Below are positions 3,809 through 32,740 of a stretch of 64,000 nt of DNA, piece by piece. The notes under the pieces are model-generated. The model had not been told where the DNA came from and made no database searches. It worked only from the letters and a program-made list of their open reading frames with translations. Position 1 is the stretch's first letter. Each line of letters begins with the position of its first letter. Source of the stretch: Methanosaeta sp. PtaU1.Bin112 (GTDB lineage Archaea; Halobacteriota; Methanosarcinia; Methanotrichales; Methanotrichaceae); NCBI GenBank assembly GCA_002067705.1, contig MVRL01000086.1, forward strand, positions 62,001 to 126,000. The letters run 5' to 3'. The translations under genes were made by a program, and so were the position numbers.

Positions 3809-4447
3809 TCAAATGCCAACTTTCGCCTTGAGCTTTGAGATATCGCTTTCTATCCGCCTTAACCGATCATCCAGAGACTCTTTCTTCTCAGAAATCTCAT
3901 CAATAATAGCCTCGCGATTCTCGTCTAACTTGAGGATCACCTCATCTCGGGAGGTTTTTATCTCCTGGACGAGATCCGCTCGGGTCTCCTCCAGCTTGGC
4001 AATTGTGGCGTCCTGCTTTTCCAGCATCTTATCCTGCTTTTCCAGCATCTTATCCTGCTTTTCCAGCATCTTATCCTGCTTTTCCAGCATCTTATCCTGT
4101 TTGCGATCAATGCGCAGGAGGGCAGGAATGCCTTTGTTAAGCTGGTCTGCCGAAAAATAATGCATGAACGCATCCAAGGACATAATCTGCCCACCGTAAT
4201 CCTCAAAAGCAATATCCACGACATCTGCGCCTTCGGGACTTTCGTTCTGGGCAAACACTTTAAATTCTGCCAGTTGCTGTTTCTCACCTTCGATAAATGC
4301 CAGTAGAACCTGATTGCCGCCATCGGACTGATTTCTAGCAAAAAACCTCTCGCAGCCCAATTCCATCGCTCTGGTGAAAAGGAAAAACCTGTAGCCCACC
4401 TCATGAACCCTATTGCCCTTAATGATCACCTTAAGCTTCATTAGCAT
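3809..4447 (-). CDS. Acylphosphatase-like domain fused to a coiled coil
   Basis: Residues 3-90 match the acylphosphatase fold: KGNRVHEVGYRFF, then ARNQSDGG. The catalytic Arg (R20) and Asn (N39) of acylphosphatases are kept, so hydrolysis of acyl phosphates is possible, though the usual GRVQGVGYR loop is altered. Residues 118-205 are a long charged coiled coil that begins with four copies of the heptad KQDKMLE, encoded by nearly identical 21-base DNA repeats. A standalone acylphosphatase is ~90 residues, so this is an unusual two-part protein of 212 residues. Start ATG 4447 or 4441. It stands between aroC and a long AT-rich gap; partner unknown. Confidence 0.65.
   Translation of the reverse strand: MLMKLKVIIKGNRVHEVGYRFFLFTRAMELGCERFFARNQSDGGNQVLLAFIEGEKQQLAEFKVFAQNESPEGADVVDIAFEDYGGQIMSLDAFMHYFSADQLNKGIPALLRIDRKQDKMLEKQDKMLEKQDKMLEKQDKMLEKQDATIAKLEETRADLVQEIKTSRDEVILKLDENREAIIDEISEKKESLDDRLRRIESDISKLKAKVGI
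4021..4104. repeat. Four tandem 21-base repeats inside a coiled-coil gene
   Basis: Units start at 4021, 4042, 4063 and 4084. The first three are identical on the + strand (ccagcatcttatcctgcttt plus t) and the fourth differs at its end; a partial unit lies just before 4021. On the minus strand each unit encodes one heptad KQDKMLE, so the repeat adds or removes whole coiled-coil turns without shifting the frame. Confidence 0.9.
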
Positions 4448-4616: not shown

Positions 4617-5339
4617 TCACCCTTCCATCGATTCATCGCCGGCAATCCCTGTCTGGGGAAAGATGTAGTTCACCCAGCAGAGGGCCACCAGAGATGTCCC
4701 ATACTTCTTCTCCACCTGGAGATAGTCGATGGCATAGGTTGGTTCAGAGAACTCATACTCACTGGCATTATATCTCCTGTTCACCTCACCCATCAAGGAG
4801 GTATGCAATGCATCTTTTGCCGCCGACCTGGCTTCTTCTTCAGCAACGGTCTGGTTCTCATATCTCTTCTTGTACTCAGCAGCAAACCCGCCGACCAGAG
4901 ATCCATCCAGGTTATTTACCCATATCCTGCCAACGCCGGTACACAGGGTATCGCCCTGAACTCCATTGAGATCGGACATGATGGTCTCAATGGCCGCTCC
5001 ATGATGGAAGTACTCCCGGGCTTCGCTCAAGTTGATCTCCTTTGATTCGGGAGGTAACACAGAGGTATACTTAAGCACATTGAAGTTCTCAATGCTCGCA
5101 TTCATCAGAGCCAGGTCGTAAGATCCCGTCTCCCAAGGATCGTCGCCCGGGCCCAAATCGGTGTCATTGTGACCCATGGTGACGAAGTACTCGTAGGGTA
5201 TCCTGTTTCCCAGGACCAGGCCGTTCATCATGCCCGTGTTATCGTCCGCCTGGTCCTCGCTGGCAAGAGCCGGGCCGGCCAGGGACGGAGCAAGCAGTAC
5301 TGCCACAAGGATCAGTGGCGCAGAAGCTATTAGTCTCAT
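4617..5339 (-). CDS. Pyruvoyl-dependent arginine decarboxylase homologue with a signal peptide
   Basis: Homologous to PdaD (PvlArgDC), which makes agmatine from arginine using a pyruvoyl group formed by self-cleavage at a serine. The core matches: SYDLALMNASIENFNVLKY-TS-VLPPESKEI, with the cleavage pair T92-S93 (the pyruvoyl-forming Ser is kept; Ser-Ser in M. jannaschii) and a Glu (E155, in GFAAEYKKRY) at the place of the catalytic Glu. Unlike the ~165-residue cytosolic enzymes it begins with a clear Sec signal peptide (LIASAPLILVAVLLAPSLAG, likely cleavage after ALA26) and has an acidic, Asn-rich body, pointing to action outside the cytoplasm. It may be an exported decarboxylase or a repurposed fold. 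Family assignment is fairly sure, activity is not. Confidence 0.7.
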   Translation of the reverse strand: MRLIASAPLILVAVLLAPSLAGPALASEDQADDNTGMMNGLVLGNRIPYEYFVTMGHNDTDLGPGDDPWETGSYDLALMNASIENFNVLKYTSVLPPESKEINLSEAREYFHHGAAIETIMSDLNGVQGDTLCTGVGRIWVNNLDGSLVGGFAAEYKKRYENQTVAEEEARSAAKDALHTSLMGEVNRRYNASEYEFSEPTYAIDYLQVEKKYGTSLVALCWVNYIFPQTGIAGDESMEG

Positions 5340-5417
5340 AATATGTTCCCCTTTTTTCTAAAAAAGTTGCCTCCATATTATATAGCATTTCGGTAGCATG
5401 CCTTCATCTAATGGTTT

Positions 5418-12561: not shown

Positions 12562-13362
12562 ATGGCCAAGAGCACCAAGACCCGCATTTACGAGATTCTC
12601 GAGCCGGACAATCCCTACGACAGGACCGCAGAGGCTGTAAACCTCTTCATGCTGGTTCTCGTAATCCTCAATGTCGCCGCCGTTGTCCTGGAGACGGTGG
12701 AGAGCATTTATTCGGCCCACCGAGAGCTGTTCCATCTCTTTTCCGATATATCGGTGATAATATTTTCCATAGAGTACATCCTTCGCCTCTGGTCCTGCGA
12801 TGTGGACGACAGATACAGCCGTCCGATCTCAGGAAGGATTCGCTTCGCTTTGGCGCCACTGTCCCTGATAGACCTCATGGTGATATTGCCCGCCTACGTT
12901 GCCCTTGTCTTTCCCGCAGATCATATTCTCCTGCGAAGCCTTCGCGTGCTCTGGACGATCCGGCTGCTCAAACTCAGCCGCTACTCAAAGTCCCTGCAGA
13001 CCATAATGGATGTGATCTCCGCCCAGAAGCGGGAGCTTTTCATGAGCTTTTCGGCAATCGGCTTTTTCATGGTGCTCTCATCGACCTTGATCTATTTTCT
13101 GGAGCACGATGCTCAGCCCCAGCACTTCCCAGACATCCCCGCGACCATGTGGTGGGCGGTCTTGACCATGACCACCGTAGGAGAGAATTACTATCCGGTG
13201 ACTCCGATGGGAAAGGTCGTGGGCGCATTGATCATCATCCTGGGAGTGGCCACCTTCGCTCTGCCCACCTCCATCCTCACCTCTGGCTTTGTAGAGGAGC
13301 TTGAGAAGCGTCGAGAGGAAAGGGAAGCTGCCAGGAGAGAAGAGACGGAGGATGGACCCTGA
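12562..13362 (+). CDS. Voltage-gated-type ion channel with altered selectivity filter
   Basis: A six-helix ion-channel subunit of 266 residues: S1 about 27-50, S2 about 58-76, S3 about 95-115, S4 with spaced arginines (LLRSLRVLWTIRLLKLSRYS), S5 about 155-178, pore loop, S6 about 215-240, and a basic C-terminal coil. The filter reads TTVGENYY (T204-Y211) instead of the potassium signature TVGYGD found in the paralogue immediately downstream. Loss of the second Gly and gain of Glu208 suggest changed ion selectivity. Both genes point the same way with 37 bases between, so they may form one operon or mixed channels. Confidence 0.85.
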   Translation: MAKSTKTRIYEILEPDNPYDRTAEAVNLFMLVLVILNVAAVVLETVESIYSAHRELFHLFSDISVIIFSIEYILRLWSCDVDDRYSRPISGRIRFALAPLSLIDLMVILPAYVALVFPADHILLRSLRVLWTIRLLKLSRYSKSLQTIMDVISAQKRELFMSFSAIGFFMVLSSTLIYFLEHDAQPQHFPDIPATMWWAVLTMTTVGENYYPVTPMGKVVGALIIILGVATFALPTSILTSGFVEELEKRREEREAARREETEDGP

Positions 13363-13399: not shown

Positions 13400-14245
13400 T
13401 TGGCACGTTTTGAGATGAATACAAGCCTCAAGAAGCGGATCTTCGGCATATTGGAGCCGGGAGATGAAGACAGCAAGTACTTCGATCCATTCATAATGGC
13501 ATTGATATCATTGAACGTACTGGCTGTGGTCCTGGAGACAGTGGATTGGCTCAATGCCAGCTATGGATGGCTCTTTCATGCCTTTGATATCTTTTCCGTC
13601 GCCGTCTTCACGGTCGAATACATTCTGCGCGCCTGGAGCTGCACTGAGAATCCCAGGTTCAAAGCGCCCGTTTCCGGAAGGCTGCGCTACCTGATCACGC
13701 CCATGGCGATCATTGATCTGCTGGCCATACTGCCTTTTTACCTGCCGTTCGTCATCCCGGACCTGCGCTTCATTCGAGCCCTGCGCCTCTTCCGTCTCTT
13801 CCGGATACTCAAGCTGGCCAGGTATTCCGATGCCCTGAAGACATTTGCCGAAGTTCTGAATCTGAAGAGGGAAGAGCTGGGTGTGACGCTATTTGCCACT
13901 CTGATTATGCTCACTGTCGCATCCAGCATGGTTTATGAAGCTGAGAATGCCGTCCAGCCAGAGGCTTTTGCGAGCATTCCCGATGCCATGTGGTGGGGGG
14001 TGGTCACCCTGACCACGGTGGGCTATGGAGATATCTATCCCAAGACGCCCCTGGGAAAGTTCATCGGCTCTTTTGTGGTGATCGCAGGTGTCGGCCTGTT
14101 TGCCCTTCCCGCAGGCATTCTGGCCTCGGGATTCAATGAGGTGCTGCAGAGAAGAAAAGAGAAAAAGAGGAAGAGGATGATCTGCCCGCACTGCCACAGG
14201 TACATAGGCGATTATGTGATGATGAAGGAAGAGGAAGACGAGTGA
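13400..14245 (+). CDS. Voltage-gated potassium channel, six-helix type
   Basis: Paralogue of the preceding gene with the same beginning (KKRIFGILEPGDED) and a canonical filter TTVGYGDIYP (T205-G210 core). S4 is arginine-rich (LRFIRALRLFRLFRILKLAR). After S6 (about 225-245) a basic segment leads to CPHCHRYIGDYV, a single CxxC knuckle that the upstream paralogue lacks and that may bind metal with a partner subunit. The frame opens at TTG 13400; ATG 13415 is an equally possible start. An A/T stretch (ttaaatccataaaa, 13381-13394) could be a TATA element of its own. Confidence 0.9.
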   Translation: MARFEMNTSLKKRIFGILEPGDEDSKYFDPFIMALISLNVLAVVLETVDWLNASYGWLFHAFDIFSVAVFTVEYILRAWSCTENPRFKAPVSGRLRYLITPMAIIDLLAILPFYLPFVIPDLRFIRALRLFRLFRILKLARYSDALKTFAEVLNLKREELGVTLFATLIMLTVASSMVYEAENAVQPEAFASIPDAMWWGVVTLTTVGYGDIYPKTPLGKFIGSFVVIAGVGLFALPAGILASGFNEVLQRRKEKKRKRMICPHCHRYIGDYVMMKEEEDE

Positions 14246-15209: not shown

Positions 15210-16184
15210 ATGGACAACAACTTGAAAACCCTCGCCGCGAAGGCAAAGACCTTTGCGCCCGAGATGATGCAGCCCCCTTACAGCGGCATCACCACCTTTT
15301 TCGGTGCACCATGCCAGCGGGAGACGAGCGGCCTGGACATTGCCCTGGTGGGCGTTCCCTTCGACCTGGGGGTCACCAACCGCAGCGGCACCCGCATGGG
15401 GCCGCGAGAGATCAGAAACCAGTCCCGTCTGGTGGGAGTCTACAACCATTACAGCCGCATGTCGCCCTTTGCCGACTGCCGCGTGGCTGATTTAGGGGAC
15501 GTTCCGTTTCAGACCACATATGACCTGAAAGAGGCCCAATCTGACATCGAATCATTCTACAGGAGGATCTCATCGGCCGGTGCGCTGGCCATCTCCGCCG
15601 GGGGAGATCACTCCATAACCTATCCCATTCTCAAGGGCCTCGCCCCAAAGGAGAAGGTCGGGCTCATTCATTTCGATTCTCATTGCGACACCTCTCCCCC
15701 CTTTCACGGAAGCGGATTGCATCACGGCTGCCCCATGAGAAATGCGGTCGAAGCGGGGCTTGTCGACCCGGAGCGCACCCTGCAGATCGGCATTCGCGGC
15801 ACAGCAGAGCTGCTCTGGCAGTTCTCATATGATAGCGGAATCAGGGTAATTCACATCGAGGAGCTTTACGAGCTGGGGATCAGGAAGGTCATCTCCGAAA
15901 TCAGAAACCGGGTGGGTGACGGTCCGGTCTACATCTCCTTTGACATCGACTGCCTGGACCCGGCCTTTGCCCCGGGCACAGGAACCCCGGTGGTGGGAGG
16001 CATGAGCAGCTTTGAGGCCTTGCAGCTCCTGCGGGGCCTGTACGGGCTGCGCGTCATCGGCGGAGATCTGGTGGAGGTTGCGCCGCCCTATGACTGCGGC
16101 GGGATTACGGCCCTGGCGGGGGCGACGATCATGTTTGAGATCCTCTGCCTGGCGGCGGCGTCCCGGTCAGGTGCGGCAAAGTAA
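15210..16184 (+). CDS. speB: Agmatinase/ureohydrolase family enzyme
   Basis: A manganese ureohydrolase of 324 residues, probably splitting agmatine into putrescine and urea. Metal ligands are complete: GGDHSITYPI (His), IHFDSHCDTSPP (Asp-His-Asp block) and SFDIDCLDPAFAPGTGTP (Asp-x-Asp). The long HGSGLHHGCPMRNAVEAGLV segment also occurs in guanidinobutyrase and guanidinopropionase types, so the exact guanidino substrate is open. The window also holds a pyruvoyl arginine decarboxylase homologue, but that one looks exported. Confidence 0.85.
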   Translation: MDNNLKTLAAKAKTFAPEMMQPPYSGITTFFGAPCQRETSGLDIALVGVPFDLGVTNRSGTRMGPREIRNQSRLVGVYNHYSRMSPFADCRVADLGDVPFQTTYDLKEAQSDIESFYRRISSAGALAISAGGDHSITYPILKGLAPKEKVGLIHFDSHCDTSPPFHGSGLHHGCPMRNAVEAGLVDPERTLQIGIRGTAELLWQFSYDSGIRVIHIEELYELGIRKVISEIRNRVGDGPVYISFDIDCLDPAFAPGTGTPVVGGMSSFEALQLLRGLYGLRVIGGDLVEVAPPYDCGGITALAGATIMFEILCLAAASRSGAAK

Positions 16185-25068: not shown

Positions 25069-25383
25069 TTATACAAGCACTATATCAGCCAGGCCAACCT
25101 TGCCGGCATTGGGCGTCATCCTGTAAATTGAGCCATCGATTCTGACCTCGACATAGTCGCCTTTCGGCACCGCATCAAAGTTGTGGGTGACAAGCAAGAA
25201 GGCCAGGTCCTCAGCATTTATTCGCGCATCCTCATTTGCATTGCAAAGGCTCAAAAGATCCTGATAGCCGATAGAAGCGCTGCCGCCGGGTACCATTGAT
25301 GCCATTATCCCCAAGAGGAGCAGAGCTATGAGACGGATGATGCCTCTCGCAGACATGCTATCACCAATAAACCTGATCCTCAC
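25069..25383 (-). CDS. Small exported protein with a DLAF domain shared with the 54 kb locus
   Basis: A 104-residue protein with a membrane/signal segment (IIRLIALLLLGIMASMVPGG) and a short mature part. The part INAEDLAFLLVTHNFDAVPK, then GDYVEVRIDGSIYRMTPNAG and LADI, aligns with the N-terminal domain of the transglutaminase-like protein at 54444-55118 (ITNKDLAFFLATHGFDAQPS, VYLTPNGASPRLAD). Its ATG overlaps the stop of the large pentapeptide gene upstream (4 bases), so the two are made together. Function unknown; it looks like a partner or adaptor domain for exported pentapeptide-repeat proteins. Confidence 0.7.
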   Translation of the reverse strand: MRIRFIGDSMSARGIIRLIALLLLGIMASMVPGGSASIGYQDLLSLCNANEDARINAEDLAFLLVTHNFDAVPKGDYVEVRIDGSIYRMTPNAGKVGLADIVLV

Positions 25384-27998
25384 GACCCCCTTCCCGATTG
25401 AATTTTATTGATCTCATTTTCCAGGTCAGGACTCATCCGAGTCCCATTGAGACGGCAAGAAGCGATGAAGAGAAGCGTTATCTGATCGTACTTGACTCCC
25501 ACCATATTGGCACCGCTCAGATCGACATCTGAAAGATATGTGATTGTAAGGTTAGCCCCGCTTAAATCTGCGCCTGTGAGGTTGACGTTCTCCAGCGCGG
25601 ACTTGCTGATCTCACAATTCATAAGGTCTGCATTGCTTAAATCAAGACCGTTCATGAGGACACCGCTAAATTTGGCTGAGTTGAGCGAAGCGTTATGAAA
25701 GGTCAAACCCTCTGAGCTTATTGCATAAAAGATGGCATCACTGAGATCTGCTCCTGAAAAATCGGCAGAGTTCATTTGATTGCCCTGGAAACTGATTCCT
25801 CTGAGATCGGCGCCTGAAAAATCCGCATAGGACATATCTGCATACTCCATTTTGCATCTGCTGAATATGCAACCGGATAGATTTGCCCTGGTAAGGTATG
25901 CTCTGGTAAAGTCTGACCCGCTCAGGTCCGACCGGCTGAGATCGGCAGCAAACAGCTCAGCCCTTCCGAACTGGCAGTTACGCAGCTGGCTATCACTCAT
26001 ATCGATCCAATTGAGTCTCGCTCCCAGTAAGCTGGAATTGATCAGTGATGCGTTCATTATTCTGGCGAGTGTGAAATCGGTCCCGACAAGCCTTGCCTGA
26101 CTCAGGTCAGCTCCGGAGAGATTGGCAGCATTCAGATGGGCACTGGTCAGGTCAGACTCACTCAGATCGGAACCAGAGAGATCCGAGTTGTTCAACTGGG
26201 AACCAATCAGCTTCGCGCCTTTCAGATTGGATCCTATGAGGCTGGACCGATCGATCCAGGTATCCTCAAGATTGCACCTCGATAGATTGGCATTTGATAG
26301 GTCTGATCCGGAGAGGCCTGATGCCAGGAAGCTCGAGCCGGATAGGTCTGCTCTGCTGAGATTTGCCGAAGTCAAATTGGCGAATATGGACCTGATGTGA
26401 TTCAACCGGGCAGCAGATAGATTTGCGCCCTTCATGCGTGACTCAGAGATATCGGCAAACGCCAGGCATGCGCCGGATAAATCGGCATCGATGATATTGG
26501 CTCCGATTAGGCTTGATCTGGATAGATTCGCACCATTCATTATAGAGTCCTGAAGCCTTGCCCGATTCATAAAAGCGCCTACAAATTGCGAGTCGCTCAT
26601 ATCGGACAGGCTCAGATTTGCAGCCTCAAATCGAGCTCCGCTGAGGTTTGTGCTTCTTAAAACAGATCCGGTTATCCGGGCTTGATCGAGATTCGATCCG
26701 CTCAGATCCGCGCCGCTTAGATTTGATCCGATAATATTGGCACCCGCCAGGTTAGCACCTTTGATCACGGCCAGATGCAGGTCGGCGCCGTGCAGGTCAG
26801 CCTCATCAAGATTAGCGTAACTGAGGTTGCTTCCTGCAAGTCGGGCATCGGATAGATTGGACCGCACAAGATTGGAATAACTCAGGTCTGTGCCCACTAA
26901 AACCGAATCCTGCAGATCCGACTGGCTGAGATCCTTTCTGCATAATTGCAGATGGCTGAGATTCTCGGATTCAAGAGAAGAGCGAGCCTGGAATGGCTGG
27001 TTGATGATGCTGCTGCCCGGCGGCAAGAGGTCGAGAGATATGCCGAAACGAGTCAAAACAAAATAGTCAAACATATAGCGATTTAGGCACTCATTCATCA
27101 CGGGAATCTTGTCAGCGGATTCGCCCTGAAGGATAGAAAGAGCCATATCTGCAGCCTCATCTCCCTGGAAATAGCTGCTGATCATCTTTCCGCCCACGAC
27201 TCCATAGCCCAGGTAGAAATCGTATATGCTGTAGAATGGAACTGGGCTTGCTTCCTGGACGAGCTGGGCCGCGTCCTCATAGGTCAGGAAGACCCCGGAT
27301 CGATCGCGGTTCATGGTCATGAGCAGCACAAGGCTGTCATTGGACAACGATTCAAGGCTCTGGCGAAGCTCCACGGAGGTGAGGTTGTCCAGATACTGGA
27401 AGGAGATATTGCTCTCAAAGCGAGGGATGACGGCATCCAGAACCTTTCGGGCAGACTGACCGGTTGCAGTCTGATCGGTTACTATGGCAATATGCCTGCT
27501 TTGAGGATGAAGATTGAGCATGAGGGAGATTGTGCTTTCCAGATCATACGCTTCCACCACACCTGTAAAGCCATTCATTCCGTTTAGCATCTCGTCCTCG
27601 AAGTACACTACACCGCAGAAGACCACAGGTGTTCCAGGAAAGAGATCATCCCTGTTTTTCAGCAGGAAATTAAACGCATCCGTATCTACAGAGATGATGA
27701 GATCAAAAGGCCGATTTTTATATTTCTTTTGATAGAGATCCTTCAGATCGGAAAGACGGGCTGGATCGGCGGCGATTCGCTTTGCGTCCATGTATTCCAC
27801 GGAAAAAGTCGCGGAGGGCATCTTCATCGCGAAATGCAGCTTGATCTCCGAGATAATGCTATCCTCCCAGGTCATGCCGGGATGATAGGAGGCAAGGATA
27901 AGGATATTTCTGGGAGTGCTTTCCGGGACTGCAAACGAAGGTCCGATGCTAAAATAGACGAGCATTAAAATCAGGCATATTTCAATGGCAATTCTCAT
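25380..27998 (-). CDS. Exported fusion: periplasmic-binding-like sensor domain plus long pentapeptide-repeat domain
   Basis: An 872-residue exported protein. After a signal peptide (about 1-23) residues 28-320 match the ABC_sub_bind type of periplasmic domain often found as the sensor of histidine kinases: RNILILASYHPGMTWEDSII, VEYMDAKRIA, DLIISVDTDAFNFLLKNRDD, and FPGTPVVFCGVVYFEDEML. From about residue 335 to 855 the protein is continuous pentapeptide repeats of the A(D/N)LSG pattern, roughly 100 units, which form a square beta helix. There is no membrane anchor, kinase or other output domain. The protein is probably extracellular; repeats may serve as a rod or binding surface. I know of no described family with this arrangement. 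Confidence 0.85.
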   Translation of the reverse strand: MRIAIEICLILMLVYFSIGPSFAVPESTPRNILILASYHPGMTWEDSIISEIKLHFAMKMPSATFSVEYMDAKRIAADPARLSDLKDLYQKKYKNRPFDLIISVDTDAFNFLLKNRDDLFPGTPVVFCGVVYFEDEMLNGMNGFTGVVEAYDLESTISLMLNLHPQSRHIAIVTDQTATGQSARKVLDAVIPRFESNISFQYLDNLTSVELRQSLESLSNDSLVLLMTMNRDRSGVFLTYEDAAQLVQEASPVPFYSIYDFYLGYGVVGGKMISSYFQGDEAADMALSILQGESADKIPVMNECLNRYMFDYFVLTRFGISLDLLPPGSSIINQPFQARSSLESENLSHLQLCRKDLSQSDLQDSVLVGTDLSYSNLVRSNLSDARLAGSNLSYANLDEADLHGADLHLAVIKGANLAGANIIGSNLSGADLSGSNLDQARITGSVLRSTNLSGARFEAANLSLSDMSDSQFVGAFMNRARLQDSIMNGANLSRSSLIGANIIDADLSGACLAFADISESRMKGANLSAARLNHIRSIFANLTSANLSRADLSGSSFLASGLSGSDLSNANLSRCNLEDTWIDRSSLIGSNLKGAKLIGSQLNNSDLSGSDLSESDLTSAHLNAANLSGADLSQARLVGTDFTLARIMNASLINSSLLGARLNWIDMSDSQLRNCQFGRAELFAADLSRSDLSGSDFTRAYLTRANLSGCIFSRCKMEYADMSYADFSGADLRGISFQGNQMNSADFSGADLSDAIFYAISSEGLTFHNASLNSAKFSGVLMNGLDLSNADLMNCEISKSALENVNLTGADLSGANLTITYLSDVDLSGANMVGVKYDQITLLFIASCRLNGTRMSPDLENEINKIQSGRGS

Positions 27999-29044: not shown

Positions 29045-32000
29045 TTGAGCAGCAGAATTGTGCAGCAGACCCTGGAAGGGCTGGCTGTCTCTGCCATGCC
29101 CAGGGTTAGGACCACAGACGGCCATCTGCTGGACTGGAATAGAGATGCCATAGCCAAGCAGCTGCTCAAGGAGACAAAACTCTCTGAGCAATTTTATAAA
29201 GAGCCAGGCATAACCCCAGAAGAGGCTCAGGATATCGCAAGAGAGGTGGAGCGCCGAGTGCGCTGGATGAACGTCCAGTACCTCAGCGGCCCACTTGTGC
29301 GCGAGATCATGAATGTGGTCCTCCTGGAGAGGCATCACACTGAATGGCGCAACATCTGCACGCGCGTGGGAACTCCGGTCTTCGATGCCCACCTCATCGA
29401 TATCGGCACGGGCTTTGAGTCCAAGGAGAATGCCAACCTCCAGGAAAATGCCGAGACCAGCCACAAGAAGAAGGCGGACAAGATCAGCAAGGAGCAGTAC
29501 CTGCTGCTTCTGCCGCCCCATCTCGCCGACCGCCACCTGGCCGGAGACCTGCACATCCACGATCTGGAATATTTTGGAACCAGGCCATTTTGCATCGATG
29601 GGTGCACCGCCGTGCCCGTGATCGATAAAGGCATAAGAGCCATCATAAGGCCAGACGAAATGCCATTTGATGGCGACTACTACTATCCAGAGGAACTCTA
29701 TGCCATATCGCCACGCGGACCCAAAAAGGTGATAAAAGTCTCACGCCGCCCGGCAGACAGAGATCTTCTGAAGATAAAAACCACCAGCGGCAAATCTTTG
29801 AAAGTCACGCACGAGCACAGGATACCAGTCATCGGCCAAGGCATAAAGAAAGCTGAAGATATCAATCCAGGCGATGTATTAAGTGGAGCATTTGAGAACG
29901 GACTGAACCTGCGCGCAGAGCCCATTGAGAGCTTGGACCTGATAAATGAGTTCGTGGATAAAGTGCCTGCATCAGATCTGGAATCCATCTTCGTGAGAGG
30001 CGCTCGCCCGCTCTTCCATAAGGTGATCGAGGAAGGAAGATGCCAGTCGTTCTCGGATATATCCCTATCATTGGGCGTCGAGCATCATAAAGAGTGGTAC
30101 ACCAGAGGCATAATGCCCATATCGCTCTTCAAGAGATTTGCAGATTATTTTGGCCTGGACAGCTGCGCAGAGCTGAGGATAGGCGCAACCGGAAGCGAAC
30201 ACGATCTGCCTTCCGTCTTCACCCTCACAGCAGATGTCGCGAAGATGCTGGGCTACTTCATCTCCGAGGGCAACTACAACATCCAGCAAGGCCATAACTA
30301 CAATCTGGTCATCACCGGAAGTAAGCACGCAGAAACGGTAAAATGCTGTGCAAATGGCGCACTCAATACTTATGCGACGACGACGGAGGGCAACCCTTCC
30401 ACCAGGACGATTTACGGCATAGAGGGCGAGTGGGAGAGAGCCAAACAGGTTTATTTCGGAGGCAAGCTCATTTTCCTGCTATTCCGGTACGTCTTTGGCA
30501 TAGCCGGAAAAAGCTACAAGAAGAGGATTCCCAGCATCGTCTACCAGATGAGCGACGGTCTCCTGCATCACTTCTTGAGTGCATTATTTACCGGAGACGG
30601 CTCCGCATTCTACCGGCCGGAAAAGTCCGATTGCATCGTCAATTACACTACCGCTTCAGAGATGCTTCGCCAGGAGCTATGTCTTCTCCTCACATCACTA
30701 GGAATGAATCCTCAGGTTGTGGAGCTGTACGAGGGAGAGGAGAGACGGACACTCTACAGGATACAGCTCAATGGATTCAGAAACATTTTGGCTTTCAGCA
30801 AGGTGGCCGGATTCCTTGACAGCCGCCAGGAGCACATCGATAGGTTCCTGTCCGAGGTCAAGGAGACTCACATGATCCCGAAACAGGAAGTGGTCAGAGA
30901 GATCGTCTCCGCAAAGCCGTCAGGCGAGTATGTCTACGACCTGTTCTTGGAAGGCGATGACGAAGAAAGCCATACATACTTCGCCTCAGACGGCTTGCTG
31001 ATACACAACTGTCAAGATTGGGATCTGCGCTATTTCCTCTACTACGGCCTGATGCCCGACGGCCTGGGCACCAAGGCCAGCGTTGCGGGACCGGCCAAGA
31101 AGCCGGAGGTGGCCATGCTGCACGCCGTAAAAGCCCTGGGAAGCGCCCAGACCAACTTCGCGGGTGGACAGGGCTTTTACAACTTCCTGACATTCATCGC
31201 TCCATACTTTGAGGGCAAAGATTACGGGGAGATAGTCCAGCTCATGCAGATGTTCGTCTACGAGATGACACAGATGATGGTCGCTCGCGGCGGACAGCTC
31301 GTCTTCTCCTCGGTGCAGCTGACGCCCGGAGTTCCCAAGCTGTGGAAGGACAAGCCCGCCGTCTTTGCCGGCAAGGTCTGGAACGGCTCATCGCCCGAGG
31401 CTCCGCTCAAGACCTACGGGCAGTTCGAGCGCGAGGTCCGTCTGGCCTTCAAGGCCCTCATGGAGGTCATGCTCGCCGGCGACTACTGGGGCAAGCCCTT
31501 CAACTTCCCCAAGCCGGAGATAAGCATCGAGCCGGACTTCATGAAGGAGGATGAGGCCTTCAATGCAGCGCACCCCGACCTGCCCACCTACCAGCAGCTC
31601 TACCTCATGACGTTCAAGCTGGCTGCTGAGTACGGCACGCCGTACTTCGACAATCAGCTCCCCGCATATCGCGGTGCAGGAGAGGGAATATCGTGCTATC
31701 AATGCTGTGCGTATCAATTTGCCGCCACCTACGACAGCGACAGCCTGTTTGAGGACAAGCTGTACTTCAAGGAGGGAAAGCACTTCTCAATGGGCTCCTG
31801 GCAGGTTGTATCCCTCAACTGTCCTCGCGCCGCTTACCTCGCGAGGGGCGACGACGAGCTTCTCTTCGAATATCTCCGAGAGCTGATGGACACATCGGTT
31901 GAGATCTTCAAGGTCAAGCGCCAGTGGATGAACCAGGTAATCAAGAACCACCGCATGCCCTTCGCCACCCAACAGCCGCGCGACCCGCGCACGGGCGAGA

Positions 32001-32740
32001 AAGGCAGCGTCGCCGTCGACCTGGAAGGGCTCGTCTATACCATCGGCGTGGTGGGCGTCAACGAGATGGTGCAATTCCATACCGGAAAACAGATGCATGA
32101 GTCTAAGGAGGCCTGGAAGCTGGCCGTGCGGGCTATGACCGAGATGGAGATCTACGCTAAAAAGCTCTCCATGCAGCACGGCATGACCATCGCCCTGGCG
32201 CGCACGCCTGCGGAGACCACCGCCCAGAGATTCGCGGTATCCGACCTCATCCATGAGGAGTATCGGGACTATGCCGAGAAGGTTGTCAAGGGCGACCTGT
32301 CAGCCGTAAATAAGAACCTGCACAAGACGCGCGATCTGCCGGTCTATTACACCAACGGCACTCACCTGCCGCCCAGCGCCGACGTGACCATATTCGAAAG
32401 GGCAAAACTCGAACATGTCTTCTTCCCGATAGTCGATGGAGGAAATATATTCCATATCTTCATGGGAGAAGCTACCCCTGATCCCCAGGGCCTGATGGAC
32501 TTCGGCATGCGCCTCTCCCGAGAGACACAGATCGGATACTTTACCTTCAGCCGAGATATGACGGTATGCCTGGGATGCTCTCAGGTATCAGGAGGATTGA
32601 AAGAGCAGTGCCCTAATTGCGGGTCGAGCGACGTGGACCACATAAGCAGAATTACCGGGTATCTCCAGGCGGTTAGCGGATGGAACAACGCCAAACGCCA
32701 GGAGCTGAAGGACCGAAAAAGGTACAACGAACTGGCATAA
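29045..32740 (+). CDS. nrdD: Anaerobic ribonucleoside-triphosphate reductase, intein-containing precursor
   Basis: Class III glycyl-radical ribonucleotide reductase; the 1231-residue precursor gives a 758-residue enzyme after removal of a 473-residue intein (residues 183-655). The N-terminal ATP-cone-like part is VRTTDGHLLDWNRDAIAKQL; the extein junction restores DLEYFGTRPF-CQDWDLRYFL. The C-terminus has a four-Cys zinc site (CLGC...CPNC) and the glycyl-radical motif RITGYLQ, Gly1205 in the precursor. Start is TTG 29045 behind GAGGGGATGG, or ATG 29096. It needs an activase (NrdG), which is not in the window. It provides dNTPs under the strict anaerobiosis of a methanogen. Confidence 0.95.
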   Translation: MSSRIVQQTLEGLAVSAMPRVRTTDGHLLDWNRDAIAKQLLKETKLSEQFYKEPGITPEEAQDIAREVERRVRWMNVQYLSGPLVREIMNVVLLERHHTEWRNICTRVGTPVFDAHLIDIGTGFESKENANLQENAETSHKKKADKISKEQYLLLLPPHLADRHLAGDLHIHDLEYFGTRPFCIDGCTAVPVIDKGIRAIIRPDEMPFDGDYYYPEELYAISPRGPKKVIKVSRRPADRDLLKIKTTSGKSLKVTHEHRIPVIGQGIKKAEDINPGDVLSGAFENGLNLRAEPIESLDLINEFVDKVPASDLESIFVRGARPLFHKVIEEGRCQSFSDISLSLGVEHHKEWYTRGIMPISLFKRFADYFGLDSCAELRIGATGSEHDLPSVFTLTADVAKMLGYFISEGNYNIQQGHNYNLVITGSKHAETVKCCANGALNTYATTTEGNPSTRTIYGIEGEWERAKQVYFGGKLIFLLFRYVFGIAGKSYKKRIPSIVYQMSDGLLHHFLSALFTGDGSAFYRPEKSDCIVNYTTASEMLRQELCLLLTSLGMNPQVVELYEGEERRTLYRIQLNGFRNILAFSKVAGFLDSRQEHIDRFLSEVKETHMIPKQEVVREIVSAKPSGEYVYDLFLEGDDEESHTYFASDGLLIHNCQDWDLRYFLYYGLMPDGLGTKASVAGPAKKPEVAMLHAVKALGSAQTNFAGGQGFYNFLTFIAPYFEGKDYGEIVQLMQMFVYEMTQMMVARGGQLVFSSVQLTPGVPKLWKDKPAVFAGKVWNGSSPEAPLKTYGQFEREVRLAFKALMEVMLAGDYWGKPFNFPKPEISIEPDFMKEDEAFNAAHPDLPTYQQLYLMTFKLAAEYGTPYFDNQLPAYRGAGEGISCYQCCAYQFAATYDSDSLFEDKLYFKEGKHFSMGSWQVVSLNCPRAAYLARGDDELLFEYLRELMDTSVEIFKVKRQWMNQVIKNHRMPFATQQPRDPRTGEKGSVAVDLEGLVYTIGVVGVNEMVQFHTGKQMHESKEAWKLAVRAMTEMEIYAKKLSMQHGMTIALARTPAETTAQRFAVSDLIHEEYRDYAEKVVKGDLSAVNKNLHKTRDLPVYYTNGTHLPPSADVTIFERAKLEHVFFPIVDGGNIFHIFMGEATPDPQGLMDFGMRLSRETQIGYFTFSRDMTVCLGCSQVSGGLKEQCPNCGSSDVDHISRITGYLQAVSGWNNAKRQELKDRKRYNELA
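29591..31009 (+). mobile_element. NrdD intein with LAGLIDADG homing endonuclease
   Basis: A 473-residue in-frame protein intron. It starts at Cys (CIDGCTAVPVIDKG, block A), has block B LKVTHEHRIPVI with the Thr-x-x-His, two dodecapeptide motifs of a LAGLIDADG nuclease (MLGYFISEGNYN and FLSALFTGDGSAF, both acidic residues kept), and ends VYDLFLEGDDEESHTYF...LLIHN before the +1 Cys. All splicing residues and both nuclease acids are intact, so it should splice and may still home into empty nrdD genes. Confidence 0.93.

Follow-up and report, generated by a model that had tools for sequence, protein, structure and literature searches.

The window, meaning the whole 64,000-nucleotide stretch of DNA analysed here, carries a gene for a pyruvoyl-dependent arginine decarboxylase (PvlArgDC)-like proenzyme that begins with a predicted Sec signal peptide (Table 1). 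Our main reading, to which we give a probability of roughly 0.6, is that the product is a horizontally acquired, bacterial-type PvlArgDC that is exported through Sec, self-cleaves outside the cell, and decarboxylates arginine there. The gene occurs in 5 of 26 Methanothrix genomes, and these five sequences are called the members below. Taken together, the conserved active site, the signal peptide, and the gained glycosylation sequons suggest that a class of enzyme with a self-made cofactor has been moved outside. If so, agmatine would be produced and protons consumed at the surface of Methanothrix, a major acetate-consuming methanogen in digesters and wetlands. Amino acid decarboxylases are regarded as cytosolic enzymes served by antiporters, and we are aware of no report of a pyruvoyl decarboxylase that is exported. 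Among the papers listed by literature searches on arginine decarboxylase, including the pyruvoyl-dependent form, no title or abstract opening mentions an exported enzyme.

Table 1. Positions in the window of the PvlArgDC-like gene, its predicted parts, and its upstream signals.
Feature	Position	Strand	Remarks
CDS of the putatively exported PvlArgDC-like proenzyme	4617..5339	minus	240 aa, ATG start
Predicted Sec signal peptide, residues 1-26, ending in ALA	5262..5339	minus	no lipobox Cys, no twin Arg
Acidic linker, residues 27-37, fast-evolving	5229..5261	minus	
PvlArgDC core, residues 38-226	4662..5228	minus	strict conservation from M38 on
Insert, residues 61-72 (DLGPGDDPWETG)	5124..5159	minus	same insert in the Lichenicola homologue
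T92-S93, predicted self-cleavage site yielding the pyruvoyl group	5061..5066	minus	
E155, counterpart of M. jannaschii catalytic E109	4875..4877	minus	
Ribosome-binding site, purine-rich GGGG/GAGG, 8 nt 5' of the ATG	5348..5351	minus	same position in 5/5 relatives
BRE/TATA promoter element CCGAAATGCTATATAATA	5376..5393	minus	kept in all 4 relatives whose contig is long enough

Predicted fold and active site

The protein matches the Pfam PF01862 profile with 84.8 bits (E 8.2e-24; curated cut-off 22.7 bits), and the match spans residues 47-222 and profile positions 1-160 of 161. It misses the NCBIfam equivalog cut-offs of TIGR00286 (42.9 vs 106.95 bits) and NF009064 (43.9 vs 207 bits), as do its homologues from Lichenicola and Parabacteroides. 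A sequence search against solved structures returns PvlArgDC of M. jannaschii as the sole match of weight (E 0.0007). In the alignment to that enzyme, D75, N87, T92, S93, and E155 fall on D35, N47, S52, residue 53, and E109. The initial annotation had named T92-S93 as the cleavage site and E155 as the catalytic-type glutamate, and both align as it proposed, with S52-S53 and E109. S93, whose conservation it had singled out as a check, is invariant together with N87 and E155 in two 17-row alignments, the second of partly different rows, and D75 is present in all five members.

Structural modelling points to the same family. An AlphaFold2 model built from a 17-row alignment has a mean pLDDT of 81.0 (34.9 when only the five close sequences are used), with most of the core above 90 and values below 50 at residues 1-40 and 234-240. 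Foldseek places the model with 1n2m_A at E 6.6e-13; rows past rank 10 (haemagglutinins, a baseplate protein, and others, E 0.015 or worse) were discarded as chance. By VIA-align, the model superposes on 2qqd_H with a Z of 19.3 and an rmsd of 2.0 over 152 aligned residues and on 1n2m_F with a Z of 19.0, and the next family after PvlArgDC is histidine decarboxylase (1pya, Z 8.3). The predicted structure contains the alpha-beta-beta-alpha sandwich of solved PvlArgDCs. As modelled, this is a protein of PvlArgDC fold with the cleavage serine, catalytic glutamate, and asparagine in place, and the homology that the initial annotation proposed is borne out by both the profile match and the Z of 19 to the M. 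jannaschii enzyme.

The best-surviving alternative, which we consider unlikely, accepts export of this fold and gives it another job: the protein would self-cleave and act on a different amino acid, or would be a non-catalytic surface protein. An identity of only 20% to the solved arginine enzyme and a score under the TIGR00286 cut-off leave room for such a role, as does the lack of an adjoining agmatine gene in the five carriers; in the window, the nearest agmatinase is 10 kb off. Against it stand the invariance of S93, E155, and N87, the presence of D75 in all members, a core dN/dS of 0.02-0.20, and the location of the nearest homologue in an agmatine operon.

Evidence for export

The N-terminus, MRLIASAPLILVAVLLAPSLAGPALA-SEDQ, contains one arginine, a hydrophobic core, and ALA at residues 24-26, after which (following A26) the signal would be cleaved. 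Its best 12-residue Kyte-Doolittle mean is 2.76, ranking 7 of 47 among the N-termini of long ATG open reading frames in the window. An ATG, a clean hydrophobic core, and an AxA-type site occur in four of the five members, including that of the window. The exception, L040 (from the same genome as L003), reads ATC for ATG, lacks an AxA site, and has an aspartate within the hydrophobic core; its gene starts 22 bases from a contig end, and either a loss of export in that lineage or a sequence error is possible.

Upstream signals are conserved at the leader ATG. The promoter element follows the pattern CCGAAAT then CTATATA, or a near variant, 5' of this codon; the pattern, which was defined after the site had been seen, occurs once in the window at up to 2 mismatches, with 0.02 occurrences expected by shuffles. 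The ribosome-binding match to the AAGGAGGTGATC consensus covers only 4 bases, a length reached by 35% of all window ATGs, so that this site counts mainly by its fixed position.

The leader also changes in a characteristic way. In pairwise comparisons among the members, non-synonymous differences amount to 15-43% in the leader and 0.7-8% in the core, with dN/dS values of 0.25-0.76 and 0.02-0.20, respectively. The frame upstream of M38 is open in all five, and the only indel spans a single codon. Judged from these alignments, leader and core diverge as expected of a translated signal peptide plus linker. No such leader is present in the other PvlArgDC homologues read. The initial annotation had held the leader to be genuine and had named a start downstream of it as grounds for doubt; the promoter and ribosome-binding site lie at the leader ATG, the frame is open in every member, and a fast leader precedes a frozen core, all of which favour its claim. 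It had also described an added acidic segment. An acidic stretch is indeed present, but it is not a single segment: it comprises the variable linker at 27-37 and the separate 61-72 insert, which is common to a bacterial homologue.

An independent sign of export comes from N-X-S/T sequons, which carry N-glycosylation in archaeal surface proteins. The core contains 5 in the window protein and 4, 4, 5, and 6 in L037, L038, L039, and L040, respectively. Leaderless homologues (26 rows) carry fewer: 11 rows lack sequons, 13 have a single one, and the remaining two rows have two and three. N58-D-T60 and N191-x-S193 are present in all five members, as is an N-x-T around 160-162. The excess would be a sign of export drawn from sequence, and the five members, as close kin, represent one evolutionary event rather than five. 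C133 and C221 are likewise invariant in the five members and could form a disulfide.

Two further alternatives concern the leader itself. The protein might be exported without being released, the hydrophobic segment being retained as an N-terminal anchor that keeps the enzyme at the membrane's outer face. Some other N-termini in the window are anchor-like; here, the short hydrophobic core, the AxA-type site in four of five members, and the fast-evolving linker behind it make this improbable. Least probable is a cytosolic enzyme that starts at M38 behind an untranslated frame, for although M38 is invariant and aligned near the start of a leaderless bacterial homologue, and L040 has lost the ATG and signal character, such a start would leave a 5' untranslated leader 111 bases longer than the promoter position suggests, and it sits poorly with a frame that is open with a codon-sized indel in all five members, a clean hydrophobic signal in four, and the sequon excess in the core. 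M38 could instead be the old start codon.

Distribution and bacterial affinity

PF01862 proteins are found in most genomes of the phylum (351 of 392) but in only 6 of the 50 genomes of the family: the five of the window type and one ordinary archaeal type (L002, in genome G002), which clusters with archaeal rows in the tree. A search of the 392 phylum genomes with a profile of the five members finds its nearest other protein at E 8e-10. The nearest relatives by search are plasmid proteins of Lichenicola cladoniae (WP_171837733.1, 33% identity) and Parabacteroides distasonis (WP_005856730.1, 30%). The former is matched by tblastn at E 2e-19, a value on a different scale from the profile E of 8e-10.

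In a 30-row tree, the five members group with the Lichenicola protein (support 98/94), and these together with bacterial and viral rows form a group (100/99) separate from the archaeal rows; the Lichenicola branch is long (1.8), which makes the exact sister uncertain. By this placement, the gene is a bacterial-type PvlArgDC and not, as the initial annotation had implied, an archaeal PdaD with an added leader. The second, leaderless pdaD for which that annotation suggested a search is not found in the genome, where the exported-type gene is the sole PF01862 match.

A cytosolic bacterial enzyme thus seems to have been acquired by horizontal transfer and to have received a leader ahead of its old start, as indicated by the T-S pair, the 61-72 insert, the FHHG motif, and a start near M38 in the Lichenicola protein. 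The leader may also have been present already in a bacterial donor missed by the one scan of whole bacterial genomes, which used exact short patterns.

An origin in a virus or plasmid was considered and rejected. There is no relative in phage records and none with A1 in viral contigs, and only 2 of 72,556 plasmid records match, both of them distant. Separately, PF01862-type homologues of both archaeal and bacterial type (L086 and L089-L105) lie on 17 putatively viral IMG/VR contigs, and one of them (L101) has a frame that is broken where the PF01862 match begins.

Genomic location

The gene occupies at least three sites among the carriers. Three share the order PAC2-pmbA-prs followed by the gene (L114, L115, and L117). 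The next gene is aroC in G034 and an acylphosphatase-like gene, itself followed by aroC, in the window; the contig of the third carrier ends inside the PvlArgDC-like gene. Of the 21 non-carriers, 11 have a post-prs stretch that is readable up to a hit to the following gene (acylphosphatase-like or aroC), and all 11 lack the PvlArgDC-like gene there. In carrier G024, the post-prs site is empty (L120), and the gene lies elsewhere, before what by sight is an aspartate carbamoyltransferase-like gene; carrier G038 has different neighbours, including a gene named by sight as histone-deacetylase-like. No agmatine gene adjoins the gene in any of the five carriers and no antiporter is found among its neighbouring open reading frames; an MFS transporter lies by it in L039.

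Several other genes in the window are of separate note. The acylphosphatase gene (3809-4447, minus strand) has a C-terminal tail in which a 21-base tandem repeat recurs in 4.2 perfect copies (4011-4099); several relatives have this gene between prs and aroC, at variable identity, and others lack it. On the plus strand, two adjoining six-helix-type ion channels (12562-13362 and 13400-14245) differ in their filters, the second having the usual TVGYGD and the first TVGENYYP instead. An anaerobic ribonucleotide reductase (NRDD; 29045-32740, plus strand) is split by an intein with a LAGLIDADG domain, and its intein-splicing profile scores just under the cut-off. In the 872-residue product of 25380-27998 (minus strand), a signal-like N-terminus is joined to an ABC substrate-binding-like part and to a very long stretch of pentapeptide repeats.

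Agmatine and decarboxylase setting

TiaS, which requires agmatine, is encoded in all 50 family genomes. No AdoMet_dc-type decarboxylase is found in these 50 genomes, and a PF02784 decarboxylase is present in 49 of them. In the window genome, a PF02784 protein of 649 aa passes the SpeA cut-off (681 vs 624 bits), which gives cytosolic agmatine a PLP-dependent source. By this assignment, SpeA can supply housekeeping agmatine, and the idea that the exported-type enzyme is the sole agmatine source for TiaS was rejected. Two agmatinases of the window genome score above the TIGR01230 cut-off, and one of them (15210-16184, plus strand) has no leader and is the nearest agmatinase, 10 kb from the exported-type gene. 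This high-scoring type occurs in 7 of the 26 genomes of the genus. Neither an extracellular agmatine user nor an arginine source was found.

Of the two OKR-type decarboxylases in the window genome, one (L081:2803-5157) is nearest to an AdiA-type model and falls under its cut-off. Across the 26 genus genomes, an OKR decarboxylase is present in 4/5 carriers and 6/21 non-carriers (Fisher p 0.055), the window-type agmatinase in 3/5 and 4/21 (p 0.10), and AA_permease_2 in 2/5 and 14/21 (p 0.34). None of these tests is significant, relatedness is uncorrected, and several of the genomes are incomplete, so the acid-stress reading of these co-occurrences is a hint only. An AA_permease_2 antiporter is absent from three of the five carriers, including the 99% complete window genome, where PF13520 has no match anywhere, and from 7 of the 21 non-carriers. 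Three of 50 genomes, the carrier G024 among them, have a glutamate decarboxylase over the cut-off.

Two observations stand apart from these comparisons. In the Methanothrix carrier G024 (contig C186; L082), a glutamate decarboxylase, two OKR-type decarboxylases, and a C69 peptidase form a cluster, and in G034 (C311) and G035 (C159), two AA_permease_2 domains share a single open frame, of 952 and 981 residues.

Proposed mechanism

On our main reading, the gene would be transcribed from its own promoter just 5' of the leader ATG, as the conservation of that element shows. The Sec signal peptide, about 26 residues long, would then be cut off after ALA. The core would fold outside the membrane into the predicted PvlArgDC sandwich, and the sequons suggest that it would be N-glycosylated. 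Self-cleavage at T92-S93, expected from the conserved residues, would yield a beta chain (27-92) and an alpha chain (93-240) with an N-terminal pyruvoyl group. By homology, the mature enzyme would act on arginine outside the cell, forming agmatine and CO2 and consuming one proton.

It would serve to buffer acid or to supply agmatine. Most probably it would be an accessory system that consumes acid or makes agmatine independently of an antiporter, rather than a provider of housekeeping agmatine. Known acid-resistance decarboxylase systems need an arginine/agmatine antiporter. More tentatively, we propose an extracellular self-maturing decarboxylase that leaves the cell unfolded through Sec, becomes active outside, and consumes protons at the surface with no such antiporter. 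The class is unusually suited to work outside the cell because its cofactor is made from its own chain and no PLP is needed; a PLP enzyme would presumably be less easily moved outside than one with a self-made cofactor.

Comparison with known systems

The passages of PMC9992855 and PMC10407285 consulted deal mainly with pyruvoyl decarboxylases derived from AdoMetDC, which have a different fold, and those of PMC8674449 do not assign the enzyme to Methanothrix. Passages of PMC2720952 describe AaxB of Chlamydia as a PvlArgDC that self-cleaves at Ser53, has a role for Glu109, and was acquired horizontally. From that description, the window protein is likened to it as a horizontally acquired PvlArgDC. 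In the AaxABC arginine:agmatine exchange described there, an antiporter and a porin bring arginine in and agmatine out (PMC2720952); unlike that system, the window gene has no adjoining antiporter.

The window protein resembles M. jannaschii PdaD (PDB 1n2m, 1mt1, 2qqc, and 2qqd) in its predicted fold (Z 19) and in having counterparts of N47, S53, and E109. It differs from PdaD in being only 20% identical, in its leader, its 61-72 insert, and its 4-6 sequons, in having threonine for serine ahead of the cleavage serine, and in being bacterial-type by tree. With Lichenicola WP_171837733.1, it shares the T-S site, the 61-72 insert, and the FHHG motif, whereas that protein and Parabacteroides WP_005856730.1 lack a leader and have 1 and 0 sequons, respectively. 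The Lichenicola gene has a basic amino acid/polyamine antiporter on one side and aguB-aguA, an agmatine-using operon, on the other; the Methanothrix gene has no such neighbours. Set beside these relatives, the Methanothrix protein would represent an enzyme that was bacterial and cytosolic before transfer and archaeal and exported after it, with a leader placed just ahead of the old start.
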